A DNA stretch of 64,000 nt from Oceanospirillaceae bacterium (GTDB taxonomy: Bacteria; Pseudomonadota; Gammaproteobacteria; Pseudomonadales; Balneatricaceae), in contig JABSQZ010000009.1 in NCBI GenBank assembly GCA_013215505.1, forward strand, positions 62,001 through 126,000, read 5' to 3'. Below the pieces are notes generated by a model that ran no database searches, had not been told where the DNA came from, and saw only the letters and a list, made by a program, of their open reading frames with translations. The position numbers were made by a program, and so were the translations under genes. How positions within the stretch are numbered: position 1 is the first letter of the stretch; every line of letters begins with the position of its first letter. Below are positions 28,872-56,950 of the stretch, piece by piece.

Positions 28872-29639
28872 ATGAAACCCCCAAATCTCTCCTGCCTCGG
28901 CATTTTATTCCTCTGTCTGTGCGCTTCCAATTTGTCAGCTGCCAGCAAAATTGACGATGTTAAAAGTGAACTGCTAGCGTCGCATTCCCAGAGCGCTGCT
29001 GTACAGCAGCAGATTGACCAGCTACATCAGTCAGCGGGTGAAGCTGAACATCAATACCGAACTCTGATGCTGCAACTAGACTCAGTTAACGCCTATAACC
29101 AGCAGCTGCAGCAGCGTATGGCGCTACAACAGCAATCTCTGTCAGATATTGCTAAGCAGTTAGTATCAGTCACTGAGGTTGACCGTGAAATCATACCTCT
29201 GATGCTGAAAATGCAGCAGAGTTTAGCGAATTTTGTGGCTGCAGATCTGCCTTTTTTAAGGTCTCAACGCAATAGTGATTTAGCTCAGCTAGAACGTGAC
29301 TTGAAAAATGTGCTATTGCCGGTCAGTGATAAATATCAGAACTTGCTGCAAGCTTTTCTCAGAGAGGAGAAGTACAGCCATGTCATGCACAGCTATCAGG
29401 CTCAGTTGCAGGTCCAGGGAGGTAATATGCAGGTAAATTACCTGCAGCTTGGGCGGATGGCACTCTATTATCAGAGTTTAGAGGGGGGAGAATCGGCTCT
29501 CTGGTCGCAGCGAAATAACACTTGGTTGTCTCTAGACAGTGCCGCTAATAAAGAACTCAGCCAAGCTATCAAGATGGCCGGTGGCCAAGCTGTCACTAGG
29601 CTACTTAATTTCACCTTGCCTGAGGTGCTGGCACAGTGA
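28872..29639 (+). CDS. DUF3450 family protein of the TonB2-type operon
   Basis: The 255-residue protein has a signal peptide (LGILFLCLCASNLSAA) followed by a long coiled coil rich in Gln and Leu (about 25-110). The C-terminal YLQLGRMALYYQSLEGGES block is typical of DUF3450. These periplasmic proteins precede TtpC-ExbB-ExbD-TonB operons in marine gammaproteobacteria and are thought to help couple TonB-dependent transport. The next gene starts within its stop codon. Confidence 0.88.
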   Translation: MKPPNLSCLGILFLCLCASNLSAASKIDDVKSELLASHSQSAAVQQQIDQLHQSAGEAEHQYRTLMLQLDSVNAYNQQLQQRMALQQQSLSDIAKQLVSVTEVDREIIPLMLKMQQSLANFVAADLPFLRSQRNSDLAQLERDLKNVLLPVSDKYQNLLQAFLREEKYSHVMHSYQAQLQVQGGNMQVNYLQLGRMALYYQSLEGGESALWSQRNNTWLSLDSAANKELSQAIKMAGGQAVTRLLNFTLPEVLAQ

Positions 29640-30994
29640 AGATAAATATGAACATAATCATTGGCTTACTGTTTGGCTTTGTTTGTAGTGCAGCGGTGCA
29701 TGCTGGCAGCGACATTGAACTTTTGTTACAGCGTGTGCAAAAAAACATAGCAGCGCAACAACAGCACGAAAACAGCAGGTTAAGCTATTTTAGAGAGCAC
29801 CAATTACAGAGAGCAGAATTGTTGACTCAGGCGCAGAGTGAGCTGGAAGCTGCAAAGGCACAGCAGCAACAATTGTTAACACAGTTCAACTTAGCCCAAG
29901 GGCGTGTTTCTGATCAAAGCGCACAACTGTTGCAACGCAGTGGCGACTTGCAATTGGTTTTTTCTCTGGCGCGAAAATACGCCGCTGATTTCTCTGCAGC
30001 CCTAGGTAGCTCTCTGACCAGTGGTCAGTTTTCAGATCGGCGGAGCAAATTGGCTTTTGCCAGTGAAGCGGCTGTACCGCAGCTTCGTGACCTGCAGAAT
30101 TTATGGTTTTTACTGTTGCAAGAGCTGACAGCAAATGCGCGAAATCAACGATTTTCCAGCTCGGTAATCAATAGCCAGGGACGGGTAGAAGAGGCAGAAA
30201 TTATGCGCCTGGGGGCTTTAGTGGCCTTTAACCAGCAGGGGCAATATTTGAATTTTAATGCGCAGAGCAAAATGTTGCAGGTATTGCCTGGGCAAAGTGC
30301 AAATTTAGTTTCCCAGGCTCAGCAGTTCTTCAGCGGAGCGAGCAATAGCATTAAGGTCGATCCGCAAAAAGGCGAGCTGCTGTTACAGCTCAGTCAAATC
30401 CCCAGTCTTGAGCAGCGCTTACATCAGGGAGGCACTGTCGGCTATATCATTATGGCTTTAGGAGCGGTGGGTCTGCTGATTGGCAGTTGGCGGCTGATAT
30501 ATATGTGCTGGGTAAATCTGTTGATTAACAGGCAGCTAAAATCAGCGCGTGCCAGTGACAAAAATGCACTGGGGCGTGTGTTGCTGGCAGTCGCTGGGGC
30601 CACTAATGTTCAGCGTGCAGAGCTGTTGATAGATGAGTCAATTTTAAGGGAGCTACCGGCACTGCAGCGCGCTCACAGTACCGTAAAGTTACTGGCGGCG
30701 GTCGCTCCGCTGTTGGGCCTGTTGGGAACAGTCACCGGCATGATAGAAACTTTTCAGAGTATCACTTTAGTGGGCACCAGCGATCCAAAACTGATGGCGG
30801 GTGGGATCTCTCAGGCGTTGATAACAACAGTGATGGGGCTATGCGTGGCGATTCCCTTACTCTTCTGTCACAGCTATATCAGTGGCCAGAGCAAAGCGAT
30901 ATTGCAGAGGATTCAGCAGCAGAGCTTATTGCTGCTAAGTGACTATTTTGTCGAGCCAAAAACAGTGTCTGAGGGAGCTAATGCGGCAGTGTAA
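29636..30994 (+). CDS. TtpC-like MotA/TolQ/ExbB proton channel protein with periplasmic extension
   Basis: The 452-residue protein starts with a signal peptide or anchor (NIIIGLLFGFVCSAAVHAG), then a Gln-rich periplasmic coiled-coil region to about 250. The last 200 residues hold a TolQ/ExbB channel domain with three membrane segments (VGYIIMALGAVGLLIGSW, KLLAAVAPLLGLLGTVTGMIETF and ALITTVMGLCVAIPLLF). This is the TtpC architecture required by TonB2 systems of Vibrio and relatives. The GTG start (29636) overlaps the previous stop codon; ATG 29648 is an alternative. Confidence 0.9.
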   Translation: MKINMNIIIGLLFGFVCSAAVHAGSDIELLLQRVQKNIAAQQQHENSRLSYFREHQLQRAELLTQAQSELEAAKAQQQQLLTQFNLAQGRVSDQSAQLLQRSGDLQLVFSLARKYAADFSAALGSSLTSGQFSDRRSKLAFASEAAVPQLRDLQNLWFLLLQELTANARNQRFSSSVINSQGRVEEAEIMRLGALVAFNQQGQYLNFNAQSKMLQVLPGQSANLVSQAQQFFSGASNSIKVDPQKGELLLQLSQIPSLEQRLHQGGTVGYIIMALGAVGLLIGSWRLIYMCWVNLLINRQLKSARASDKNALGRVLLAVAGATNVQRAELLIDESILRELPALQRAHSTVKLLAAVAPLLGLLGTVTGMIETFQSITLVGTSDPKLMAGGISQALITTVMGLCVAIPLLFCHSYISGQSKAILQRIQQQSLLLLSDYFVEPKTVSEGANAAV

Positions 30995-31075: not shown

Positions 31076-31600
31076 TTGCCTGAAGTGTTATCTGCACTGC
31101 TGAATCTCAGTTTGTTGGAGCAGTTGCTGAATAGCGGCGGGCCGGTCATGCAGGTATTGCTGCTGGTCGCGTTTGTACTCTGGAGCCTGCTGCTAGGTCG
31201 CTTGTGGTACAAATTTGTGGAGTTTCCCGGTGCTTTGGCGCGCTGCCGGAAAGCGCAAAATCAACCCAGTTTTTCCATCGCGGCGGCGCAACTGCATTTG
31301 GCTTTACAGCAGAGTATGGGTCTGATTAAAACGACCATCGGTGTCTGTCCGTTACTGGGACTGGTGGGGACTGTGCTGGGGATGATCGAGATATTTGATG
31401 TAATTGCCTACAGCGGCGTTAGCAACGCAAAATTGATGGCCTCTGGTGTCGCCAGGGCCATCCTACCCACCATGGCGGGCATGGTTTTAGCTATCAGCGG
31501 AATGTTGCTGTTTACTTATATTCAGCGCTGGGTCATGCATCAGCGCCGATTACTGTCGAGATTGTCTTTAGCCTGGGCGCAGAAAATTCATGAGATCTAG
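31076..31600 (+). CDS. exbB2: ExbB2-type MotA/TolQ/ExbB proton channel protein
   Basis: The 174-residue protein is the short ExbB type, with an N-terminal membrane segment (PVMQVLLLVAFVLWSLLLG) and the conserved ICPLLGLVGTVLGMIEIFD-like block (here VCPLLGLVGTVLGMIEIFD). The GVARAILPTMAGMVLAISGM segment completes the channel domain. With ExbD it would conduct protons to energise TonB. The start is TTG 31076, chosen because TGGAGGG lies eight bases upstream. The gene overlaps exbD. Confidence 0.9.
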   Translation: MPEVLSALLNLSLLEQLLNSGGPVMQVLLLVAFVLWSLLLGRLWYKFVEFPGALARCRKAQNQPSFSIAAAQLHLALQQSMGLIKTTIGVCPLLGLVGTVLGMIEIFDVIAYSGVSNAKLMASGVARAILPTMAGMVLAISGMLLFTYIQRWVMHQRRLLSRLSLAWAQKIHEI

Positions 31601-31997
31601 ATTGAACTTAGATGTCGCTGAGGAAGAGGCGGCAATTGACATGACACCGATGCTGGATGTGGTGTTTATCATGCTGATATTTTTTATTGTATCTACAACT
31701 TTTGTCCGCGATCAGGGGGTGGAGATAAACCGGCCCACCGCCGGTACTGCAAAAGTACAGAAGACACAGGGCATTATCATTGCTATTGACAACCAAGGTA
31801 AGTCCTGGATAGCAGGGCAAGCTATTGCTCTGGCGCAGCTGAAGGAGCATTTGGCGGTTAAGCTGGCGCAAGACAGGGCCAGTTCAGTGTTGATCAAGGC
31901 GGACACCACTACCAGTACCGGGGACTTGATAGCGGTGTTGGATTTAGTCAGGTCGCTGGGGGTTGAATCTGTGGCCGTGGCGACTGTGCAGCCCTGA
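31590..31997 (+). CDS. exbD2: ExbD-type biopolymer transport protein
   Basis: The 135-residue protein has the single N-terminal membrane helix with the proton-carrying aspartate, in DMTPMLDVVFIMLIFFIVST, and a small periplasmic domain (VLIKADTTTSTGDLIAVLD). This is the ExbD/TolR layout. Its ATG lies inside the end of exbB2, and its stop TGA shares a base with the tonB ATG (TGATG), so translation is tightly coupled. Confidence 0.93.
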   Translation: MRSRLNLDVAEEEAAIDMTPMLDVVFIMLIFFIVSTTFVRDQGVEINRPTAGTAKVQKTQGIIIAIDNQGKSWIAGQAIALAQLKEHLAVKLAQDRASSVLIKADTTTSTGDLIAVLDLVRSLGVESVAVATVQP

Positions 31998-32859
31998 TGC
32001 GATTATTGGTGGTAACCCCGATAGCTTTAGCCGTCATCTGGCTACTGTTTATGTTAATGCTGCACTTGGCTGGGTTGGCTGAAGCCAGGCAGTCGCCGCA
32101 ATTGCTAGCAACACCGTCAAGTTTTGATTTGAGCGCTATTTCTTTTGATCGACCTCAAGCGACTGAGCCCGTTGAGTTACCAGAGCCTGTCGAGCTGCCT
32201 GAAGAAATGCCGCTAGTGGAGCCAGCACCCGCAGTCGGTTTAGAGATTCAAGCCGAATTGCCTGAACCTGTTGCAGTGGTGCTGGACGTTCCTGAAATAG
32301 TCCCAGTTGAAGTACAAGTAGCGCTGCAAATCGAGTTGCCGGAGTTTGATTTTCAGCAGATAGCGATCGCGACAGTGCCAGTAAAAAAAATTATTAAAAA
32401 GTTAGTGAAAAAACCACCGCGTAAAAACCTGCCGGCGGCCAAAAAACCGCCTAAAAATCCTTCCGCACAGCTGAGAAAAAAGTACTGCGAACGAATCCGG
32501 TCGGTTCTACAGCTAGCACCAGTAAAGAGGCTAAACCAGCCATTGCCAGTAGCAGTGCGCGGCAAAGTGCCAGCATTGCCGATTTAATCGCGCAGCGCAG
32601 TCATGCTGCCGCTATCAGTAAGACTGAGCCGAAATACCCGCGAAGGGCCCGCAGAAGAGGTGTGGAAGGAGTAGTGACAGTGTCATTTTTGGTGGCGAAA
32701 TCGGGAAAAGTACAAACTGATTCTGTGCGCATAATTAGCGCTAAGCCGCTGAAAATATTCAACCAGGCAGTTGTCACAGCAGTGCTCAACTGGCGCTTTG
32801 CGCCCGTGCTAAAGTCCTTTAGAACTACCCAGCGGGTAGTGTTTAATTTGCATAAATAA
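31997..32859 (+). CDS. tonB: TonB energy transducer, split between two frames at A AAA AAG
   Basis: Frame 1 (31997-32587) encodes an N-terminal membrane anchor (VVTPIALAVIWLLFMLMLHL), a Glu/Pro-rich spacer (VELPEPVELPEEMPLVEPAP) and a Lys/Pro-rich stretch, then ends in a poor, Arg-rich tail. The -1 frame carries the Ser/Ala-rich linker and the TonB C-terminal domain: KTEPKYPRRARRRGVEGVV and VVTAVLNWRFAPVL, ending at 32859. The frames can only be joined between about 32452 and 32587, and the heptamer A AAA AAG (32476-32482) lies in frame 1 with the exact codon phasing of a -1 slippery site. So the gene is either recoded, frameshifted by mutation, or wrong by one A in the assembly. Confidence 0.75.
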
Positions 32860-32860
32860 T

Positions 32861-33793
32861 ATGAGAACAAAACCTGTCGCGTTGCAAAAGCTATTGTTGC
32901 TGATTTGGGCGGTAACGCTGTGCACCGCTGTCGCCGGTCAAGGTGGCGACCTAAAGCTGAACCGGTCTGAGCATCAACAACTGAACAACATTCAGCGACA
33001 ACTGCAGGCGGGGAATCAGCAGCAAGGATTACACAAGTTGCTTGCTTTTGTAGAAGGGCAGCCCTCAGCCTACGCCAGGGCTTTGAGTCAGCAGCTGCTC
33101 GGGGGCGTTTATCAGCAGCAGCGGCGCTTAGAATCAGCTTTTCTTTCCTATCGACAGAGTTATGAATTTAAATACTGGCCAGAAAAAACGCGCTCTGCGC
33201 TGCTGGTTAAAATGTACAAGCTCAAATACGCACTAAAAGATTGGCAGAGCAGTATCGATTGGCTATTGCTGTGGCAGCAAAGCAACCGCGCCAGCGCCCT
33301 AGATTATATGCTGCTGGCAAATAGTTATGTGCATTTGCAGCGGCCAGTCGCGGCTAAAAAGGCGCTGCTGCAGGCACTGGCGATCAATAGCGCAGCGCCG
33401 CTGGCGTGGCGGCAAATGCTGTTGCAGCTTGAGCAGCAGCTACAACATCATCAGCATCAGCAGACACTATTAAAGCAGCTGCTGCTAGAGTACCCGCAGA
33501 CTCAGAGCTACTGGCTGCTGCTAGCCAAGAATTATCAGAGTCAGCAGCGTAGTCAAGACGCGACAGCGACATTGCACAGTGCCTTTATTGGCCAGGCCTT
33601 AACTAGCCCGGCAGCTATCCATTGGTTGGCGGCGAGTTTACGCGATCAGGGAAGTCCGATGTCGGCTGTTACTGTTATTAAACAGGCATTAGAGCGAGGA
33701 TTGCTCAATGACCTGGACAGAGCGAAAAGCTTTATCGCCAGTGCCTCTCTTGTCGCTAAAGAGTCTGCAACTAATCCCGTTGCGCCTGACTAA
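32861..33793 (+). CDS. TPR-like protein of the TonB2-type operon
   Basis: The 310-residue protein has a signal peptide (KLLLLIWAVTLCTAVAG) and then helical repeats of the tetratricopeptide type (LGGVYQQQRRLESAFLSYRQ, YMLLANSYVHLQRPVAAKKA, LLLAKNYQSQQRSQDATATL). Such periplasmic TPR proteins are the usual last gene of the DUF3450-TtpC-ExbB-ExbD-TonB operon. It starts one base after the tonB stop codon, so it may depend on translation reaching the TonB C terminus. Confidence 0.85.
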   Translation: MRTKPVALQKLLLLIWAVTLCTAVAGQGGDLKLNRSEHQQLNNIQRQLQAGNQQQGLHKLLAFVEGQPSAYARALSQQLLGGVYQQQRRLESAFLSYRQSYEFKYWPEKTRSALLVKMYKLKYALKDWQSSIDWLLLWQQSNRASALDYMLLANSYVHLQRPVAAKKALLQALAINSAAPLAWRQMLLQLEQQLQHHQHQQTLLKQLLLEYPQTQSYWLLLAKNYQSQQRSQDATATLHSAFIGQALTSPAAIHWLAASLRDQGSPMSAVTVIKQALERGLLNDLDRAKSFIASASLVAKESATNPVAPD

Positions 33794-33853
33794 GCTGAAA
33801 AAGCATCAGTTCAACTAAAAAGAACTTGAATCCAAGATGAATTAATGATTAAA

Positions 33854-33872
33854 TACAAATCATTATCATTTA
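33854..33872. promoter_or_regulatory. Fur box upstream of hemP
   Basis: AAATCATTATCATTT (33857-33871) matches the repeated NAT(A/T)AT hexamers of the Fur operator. It lies 15 to 30 bp before the hemP start codon, so hemP would be repressed by iron-loaded Fur. Confidence 0.75.
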
Positions 33873-33886
33873 GATTGGCAATAAAA

Positions 33887-34039
33887 ATGTCTACTCAGAG
33901 CTCTACTGTCATCAGCGCAGAACAATTTGTTTCTACAGAAAAATTAATGCAAGGTAAAAACGAGTTGGTTATTTTACACAGCGATCAACGTTATCTGTTA
34001 CGCATTACCCGCAATGGAAAATTAATCTTAACTAAGTGA
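33887..34039 (+). CDS. hemP: Hemin uptake protein HemP
   Basis: The start is taken as ATG 33887, since the longer frame from 33845 would run through the Fur box. The 50-residue protein ends with the HemP hallmark RYLLRITRNGKLILTK and carries the FVSTEKLMQGKNELVI segment before it. HemP proteins are small and accompany heme-uptake operons; in some bacteria they are regulators of heme receptor genes. Here the heme transport genes that should follow are nearly gone, so hemP is an orphan that may still act on genes elsewhere. Confidence 0.88.
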   Translation: MSTQSSTVISAEQFVSTEKLMQGKNELVILHSDQRYLLRITRNGKLILTK

Positions 34040-34301
34040 TTAAAAAAATCACTGCCGATTTAATCTTCTTTCATTAGATTCTGCTGGAACACCATGAATT
34101 TCACTCGCCTGCTGTTCGCAGTACCGGCGGAGAGATTAGCGGCGTAAATAGCAAGCAAAGTTCCCCTTTGCCCAAGCCAGCCACCTGATGGCAGCCAGTT
34201 AGTGCAATTTGCAGAGTTCATCTGCACATACTATGTTTGCGTGTGTCGCAGGAGAGCTGCTGGCGGCGGAACCTAATTAACTGACCAACAGGTTGTTACC
34301 C
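34040..34301. other. Decayed region between hemP and the heme-transport stub
   Basis: This gap should hold heme-utilisation genes. Only short frames remain (for example ending ELLAAEPN before a TAA at about 34280) and I could not assign them to a family. Confidence 0.4.
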
Positions 34302-34394
34302 ATGAAACGTGTTCTACCCTTGCTAAGTGGAGTGCTAATCCTAGCGAACTCTGCTTCTCTGTATGCTGCCACCAACCCAGAGACTATGCAATGA
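34302..34394 (+). pseudogene. Signal-peptide stub, probably of hmuT
   Basis: ATG 34302 begins MKRVLPLLSGVLILANSASL, an evident signal peptide, continues to AATNPETMQ and stops at TGA 34392-34394. A periplasmic heme-binding protein (HmuT) is expected just before the permease and ATPase genes. The frame runs straight into the hmuV remnant, so a deletion joined the two. The hmuT identity comes from position and the signal peptide only. Confidence 0.55.
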
Positions 34395-34736
34395 GCCCGG
34401 GTATTCTGTCAAATTTGGCATACTAGTACTCTGGGAAATCGTTATCTGCTATTGGATGAGCCGACTTCGGCGCTGGATTTAGCTCACCAACACCAGACTT
34501 TGCAGATCGCCCGCAAGCTGGCGAAAAATGGCGTCGGGGTACTGGCGATCTTGCACGATCTGAATCTGGCAGCGCAATACGCCGATAAAATTTTGCTGCT
34601 CGGAGCAGGTGAAGTTGTGGCGCAAGGAGCGGTAAACGAGATCTTAACAGCAGAGAGAATAGGCGATTTATACGCCATCGAAGTTGCAGTTATGCCCCAT
34701 CCCAAACATCGGCACCCACTAGTAGTGACTTGTTAG
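34395..34736 (+). pseudogene. hmuV: C-terminal remnant of the heme ABC transporter ATPase
   Basis: The frame after the stub reads ARVFCQIWHTS, then RYLLLDEPTSALDLAHQ with Walker B and D-loop, the switch histidine in AILHDLNLAAQYADKILLL, and ends near HPKHRHPLVVTC. This is the last 110 or so residues of HmuV; the Walker A motif and the ABC signature are missing. Without them it cannot hydrolyse ATP. The hmuU permease is absent altogether. Confidence 0.88.
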
Positions 34737-56620: not shown

Positions 56621-56950
56621 ATGAGCCAACATATAATTACAGTTACCGATGCGTCTTTTGAAAAGCAGGTATTACAAGCCGATGGTGCAGTACTTGTTGA
56701 CTATTGGGCCGAGTGGTGTGGTCCCTGCAAAATGATTGCTCCGGTACTGGAAGAAATCGCTAAGGACTACGCAGGTAAAGGTTTGACCGTTTGCAAACTG
56801 AATATTGATGAGAACAGTGAAACACCACCAAAATTTGGTATCCGCGGCATCCCAACGCTGATGTTATTTAAAGGCGGGAACTTAGAGGCAACCAAAGTGG
56901 GTGCGCTCTCCAAGTCACAATTAGCGGCTTTTGTTGACGCAAACTTATAA
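56621..56950 (+). CDS. trxA: Thioredoxin 1
   Basis: The 109-residue protein has the thioredoxin fold with the active site WCGPC at 32-36 ([12 protein letters not shown]) and the cis-proline loop [10 protein letters not shown]. It reduces protein disulfides in the cytoplasm. The order trxA-rho-ubiD is typical of Pseudomonas-like gammaproteobacteria. A strong ribosome-binding site (AGGAGA) precedes the ATG. Confidence 0.97.

Follow-up and report, generated by a model that had tools for sequence, protein, structure and literature searches.

In this genome (G000; an assembly of 5.73 Mb in 52 contigs), tonB is interrupted by a frame break, which we read as a frameshift that recently abolished function in a pathway falling into disuse, and not as programmed recoding; we give this reading a probability of about 0.8. 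TonB energizes iron import across the outer membrane. The gene lies within an operon next to the remains of a heme uptake locus, and both were compared with the corresponding loci of six congeners (G001 to G006), of which G001, G002 and G004 have the operon. Coordinates without a contig refer to the window, i.e. the whole 64,000-nt stretch that was analysed (G000:C3:62001-126000).

Results

The frame break in tonB

The frame break is real in the assembly. The N-terminal part of tonB is encoded in frame 0 at 31997-32587 on the forward strand (196 codons, start ATG at 31997), and a Pfam search of this ORF returned zero matches. The TonB_C domain (PF03544, E 9e-16) was found instead in the -1-frame stretch 32482-32856, within the C-terminal part of the gene (32482-32859, forward strand), which was delimited by the profile match together with a frame and codon scan. 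The first-pass annotation had described this arrangement of an N-terminal half and a C-terminal domain in different frames, and the reading frames and the domain match confirm it. The nearest -1-frame stop 5' of the break is the TAA at 32452-32454 and frame 0 ends at 32587; hence, the switch is confined to 32455-32587, in agreement with the limits proposed earlier (open to 32587, a TAA about 25 bases before 32476).

The frame-0 ORF contains two in-phase heptamers of the form X XXY YYZ, one at 32383 (A AAA AAA) and one at 32476 (A AAA AAG). Of these, the latter alone (32476-32482, forward strand) falls within the permitted 32455-32587, so that the claim of a single fitting heptamer also holds. 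When every switch point was scored by codon-usage likelihood, 32471-32483 received about 0.56 of the weight and 32456-32519 about 0.98. This fits the heptamer as the break site, yet it does not pin the break to the A run. The heptamer at 32476 is the likeliest break point and a good candidate for its position, short of proof. The A AAA AAA heptamer is part of an eight-A run at 32383-32390, where a -1 shift leads to a stop at 32395.

tonB in relatives

In all three operon-bearing congeners tonB is one unbroken frame across the site (open for 281, 281 and 311 codons), and none of the three genes contains A AAA AAG in phase. The tonB gene of G004 carries an in-phase A AAA AAC, at which a -1 shift would reach a stop 15 codons on. 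A wider set comprised the best 80 of at least 523 confirmed exbD relatives, in which a TonB_C-like ORF was sought within 1.7 kb downstream of exbD. Such an ORF was found in 78 of these best 80 loci; 77 of the 78 span at least 150 codons from the first start, the remaining one 131 codons, and A AAA AAG is in phase in a single one of them. The first-pass annotation had left two readings side by side, programmed recoding and a fresh mutation, and had named relatives with a single continuous tonB frame and no conserved heptamer as one result that would refute recoding. This is what the comparison yielded. Together with a frame-0 product devoid of TonB_C, the unbroken homologues support the fresh mutation, and the recoding reading finds no support in the relatives or in the signals around the heptamer.

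The heptamer and its surroundings

Among 317 ORFs of this genome (at least 200 aa each, 366,171 bases), we counted 17 in-phase occurrences of A AAA AAG, corresponding to about 0.6% per 132 bases. The linker of TonB is rich in Lys, and the three congener tonB genes contain 5, 2 and 4 stretches of at least six A. Slippage by one base in an A run is a likely mutation in such a linker and, by simple arithmetic, would give a heptamer in phase in about a third of cases. The coincidence of heptamer and break therefore carries little weight.

Both tRNA-Lys genes found in a scan of tRNA loci have the anticodon UUU, and none of the scanned loci has CUU, so the heptamer could in principle slip. The tRNA set consisted of 45 matches among the 150 of 251 candidates that were scored; 30 of them were scanned as loci, 2 were fetched besides and 8 lay inside scanned loci, while five matches (on C8, C10, C11, C21 and C52) lay outside the scan.

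A weak stem formed by GAAC and GTTC had been proposed downstream of the heptamer (32489-32507). Both motifs are present (32489-32492 and 32504-32507), but in the minimum-energy fold of 32487-32510 they are not each other's pairing partners. Compared with shuffled sequences, four downstream stretches gave z values of +0.15 to +0.52 and a fifth, spanning the site, gave -1.08, i.e. folding is no better than chance. A Shine-Dalgarno-like element 5' of the heptamer was not visible by eye, and an Rfam scan of the 64-kb window returned 0 families at the gathering score. Of the features expected at a programmed -1 site, the in-phase heptamer is thus present, whereas a stimulator of either kind and conservation in relatives are lacking. 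In E. coli, heptamers without stimulators have been described to reach at most about 10-fold the mean background of 0.055% (PMC4066793, available part). Full-length TonB would hence be expected at well under 1%.

The dnaX gene, considered as a possible positive control, did not serve as one, since A AAA AAG is in phase in 0 of the 7 dnaX genes of the genus. The dnaX gene of G000 has A AAA AAA at codon 426, after which the -1 frame runs for one codon and a stop. The arrangement is alike in G003 (codon 426) and G006 (codon 416) and unlike in the four other genomes.

Accuracy of the assembly

A codon-model detector was applied to 496 kb of the genome (401 gene pieces). It reported 20 frame transitions, of which tonB alone passed the strength filter; the detector recovered 67 of 200 simulated breaks and overlooked one other broken gene (C3:56507-57485). 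A homology-based census of 78 gene intervals (72,365 bases), which failed to detect tonB itself, yielded two candidates, the same second broken gene and a match on the reverse strand under exbD and exbB that we take to be a chance match. The second broken gene is GGDEF/EAL-like by eye and lies outside the window (L180:6507-7485); its homology switches frame at 56,800, and visual inspection points to a probable further break. Within the sampled stretches, frameshifts seem to be rare. Since tonB alone passed in 496 kb, an error-prone assembly is unlikely, but a single error may be present.

The operon and its rate of change

Upstream of tonB, and on the same (forward) strand, are genes for a DUF3450 protein in the place of TtpB (28872-29639; PF11932, E 7.4e-58; gene order as in PMC6957404, available part), a long ExbB-type protein in the place of TtpC (29636-30994; PF01618, E 4e-29), an ExbB-type protein (31076-31600; PF01618, E 1.1e-18) and ExbD (31590-31997; PF02472, E 5.7e-31). 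The frames of both ExbB-type genes and of ExbD are open. A TPR protein in the place of TtpD follows (32861-33793, forward strand; TPR_14 above the cut-off). This gene had been called intact, and its intactness had been counted as a sign of function. According to the alignment it is short at the C-terminus: the protein has 310 aa, a shortfall of about 95-120 residues against 409 in G001, 404 in G002 and the stop-free stretches of two Marinobacterium (427 and 428). The operon of G004 is otherwise complete and has no TPR ORF of at least 100 aa between tonB and the heme receptor (L172:6853-7377). Loss of the TPR gene alone is thus no proof of decay.

With Marinobacterium as the outgroup, the operon proteins of G000 had 114 unique changes vs 144 in G001, 112 vs 141 in G002 and 90 vs 126 in G004. 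With G004 as the outgroup, the values were 101 vs 133 and 112 vs 113, and those for the flanking genes were 76 vs 82 and 69 vs 87. ExbD by itself had 11 changes in G000 vs 3 in G002 (G004 as the outgroup). Summed over the operon proteins, G000 shows no excess of unique changes over its congeners; the decay would therefore be recent, or some function remains.

The heme locus

The hemP gene (33845-34039, forward strand; PF10636, E 1.8e-16) is present in all 7 genomes of the genus. In G001, G002 and G004 it is followed by a complete heme receptor gene and hmuS, hmuT, hmuU and hmuV (hmu names assigned by eye and position). In G000, the receptor gene, hmuS, hmuT, hmuU and half of hmuV have been deleted, leaving a scar at 34302-34736 on the forward strand. 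There, what by eye is the beginning of the receptor gene is fused to the second half of hmuV, and 34380-34730 matches hmuV of three congeners from residue 141 onward at 63-67%. Direct repeats around the scar were not found in 34040-34460. A search for this heme receptor elsewhere in the genome did not find it; the best other match had 23% (E 7.5e-5). The first-pass annotation had noticed that the heme locus was eroded, and the scar and the missing genes bear this out.

The last receptor

One TonB-dependent receptor was found in G000. It has a full open frame of 708 aa, scores above the cut-off of TIGR01783 and has its best score to a FhuA model, below the cut-off of that model. It lies beside fhuF-, fhuC-, fhuD- and fhuB-like genes (C4:146406-152952; fhuB by NCBIfam, the others by eye). 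An in-frame TGA divides the fhuB-like permease gene (C4:150985-152952, i.e. L245:12985-14952, outside the window) into parts of 236 and 417 codons; the homolog of this gene in G002 is a single frame of 659 and matches across the stop at 74.5%. Lesions are thus present in the heme branch (the deletion), in the hydroxamate branch (the fhuB stop) and in tonB (the frame break).

A spare TonB might have explained why the gene decays. The other full TonB_C protein of G000 (C3:127120-127323), putatively TonB3-like, is found beside gshB- and YqgE-like genes (by eye), and the three receptor-free genomes described below each have a TonB_C hit of similar strength, a possible ortholog, which weakens this explanation. 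The third TonB_C hit, on C26, has an ExbD-like gene nearby; the two are probably TolA and TolR. A second ExbB/ExbD pair, between comEC-like and lpxK-like genes (names by eye), has no TonB beside it, and no other TonB in G000 stands out as an obvious partner for the last receptor. The FeoB_N model, used to ask for a replacement iron route, matches many GTPases.

TonB-dependent uptake across the genus

The operon-bearing genomes G001, G002 and G004 contain 2, 9 and 6 plug domains and 2, 9 and 7 barrel-domain matches, two of the 7 in one frame. Neither domain was found in G003, G005 and G006, which are devoid of the operon, and G000 has one of each. These receptor-free genomes are 94, 93 and 87% complete, so a single absence would be weak; yet the outcome is the same in all three genomes and for both families. 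In G006, the SDR gene adjoins glpK with hemP alone between them. In G005, the operon is absent and, besides hemP, a receptor stub of 111 aa persists. In G003, there is no operon 5' of hemP, and the contig ends shortly after. Judged by the flanking proteins, G003 and G006 are the nearest kin of G000 (SDR 92% in both; glpK 89% and glpR 96% in G006), and they have no operon at this locus.

The receptor stub, the scar and the presence of the operon in Marinobacterium suggest that the operon was lost, not gained, in the genus. As far as gene content tells, the comparison shows TonB-dependent transport to be eroding within the genus.

Discussion

Our data suggest that a small indel in the Lys-rich linker of tonB, likeliest at the six-A run at 32476, recently broke the frame. 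Ribosomes starting at 31997 would then yield a product of 196 residues without the receptor-binding domain, and such a product is what makes tonB a probable young pseudogene. A lineage that is abandoning TonB-dependent uptake may let tonB break, since the heme transporter has been deleted, one receptor is left and the permease gene adjacent to it carries a stop.

The same observations may be arranged otherwise. Programmed, selected -1 frameshifting giving two TonB lengths has in its favour an A AAA AAG in phase inside the permitted stretch, but this heptamer is missing from the congeners and nearly so from the wider set, stimulators are lacking and the short product would be without the receptor-binding domain. 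We reject programmed recoding as highly improbable, as both conservation and stimulators are wanting. A sequencing or assembly error in the homopolymer, with a continuous true tonB, would fit the six-A run at the likely break and the occurrence of the break in a single genome, and many such singletons are expected to be errors (PMC3711429, available part). However, tonB was the only transition to pass the filter, albeit with a detector of limited sensitivity, and lesions of other types, a deletion and an in-frame stop, strike the same pathway. We regard an error as quite unlikely.

The gene may also be mutated and leak. Slippage at A AAA AAG, though unstimulated, would then give a little full-length TonB, enough for the last receptor. 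The phase of the heptamer, the UUU anticodons of the tRNA-Lys genes found (with no CUU in the scanned loci), the operon proteins not being faster in sum and the one receptor frame that is still open are all compatible with such leakage. The folds and the upstream region (by eye) offer no stimulators, however, unstimulated heptamers slip rarely in E. coli, and the permease gene next to the last receptor carries a stop of its own; we consider leakage unlikely. A AAA AAG would then act as a low-level safety valve, with slippage well below 1% keeping TonB just sufficient for the one receptor left to a lineage that otherwise abandons the pathway. If this rather doubtful idea were true, it would explain the absence of an overall speed-up of the operon proteins and would represent a natural case of corrective frameshifting that delays the loss of a gene together with its pathway.

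With a recent loss-of-function frameshift as the preferred reading, a tempting claim of recoding becomes an ordinary yet informative case of decay. The genus offers a series in which some genomes have the full operon together with several receptors, some lack both, and one is intermediate with a freshly broken tonB; such a series could serve to study the order in which a transport pathway falls apart. Among papers pairing tonB with ribosomal frameshifting, none dealt with a frameshift in tonB, as judged by titles and the beginnings of abstracts, and among the titles listed on Osedax and on TonB loss nothing matched. The gene is unmentioned in the available part of PMC3711429 and in the first 300,000 characters of PMC5009743.

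The site in dnaX of E. coli, as described in the available part of PMC3711429, shares with tonB both the A AAA AAG and its phase. In contrast to dnaX, tonB has no Shine-Dalgarno-like stimulator (by eye) and no hairpin above chance, its heptamer lacks conservation, and slippage would give a longer product instead of a shorter one. The operon as a whole has the six-gene order of the Vibrio TonB2 operon, ttpB2-ttpC2-exbB2-exbD2-tonB2-ttpD2 (PMC6957404, available part), here DUF3450, long ExbB, ExbB, ExbD, TonB and TPR; it differs in the split tonB and the short TPR gene, and the names TtpB, TtpC and TtpD are used by position and domain alone. In insect endosymbionts, frameshifted genes with A runs are partly corrected by transcriptional slippage (PMC5009743, available part). 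Like tonB, these genes are frameshifted with an A run near the break, whereas their A runs are long and their genomes reduced and AT-rich, compared with six A in a genome of 5.73 Mb in the present case.
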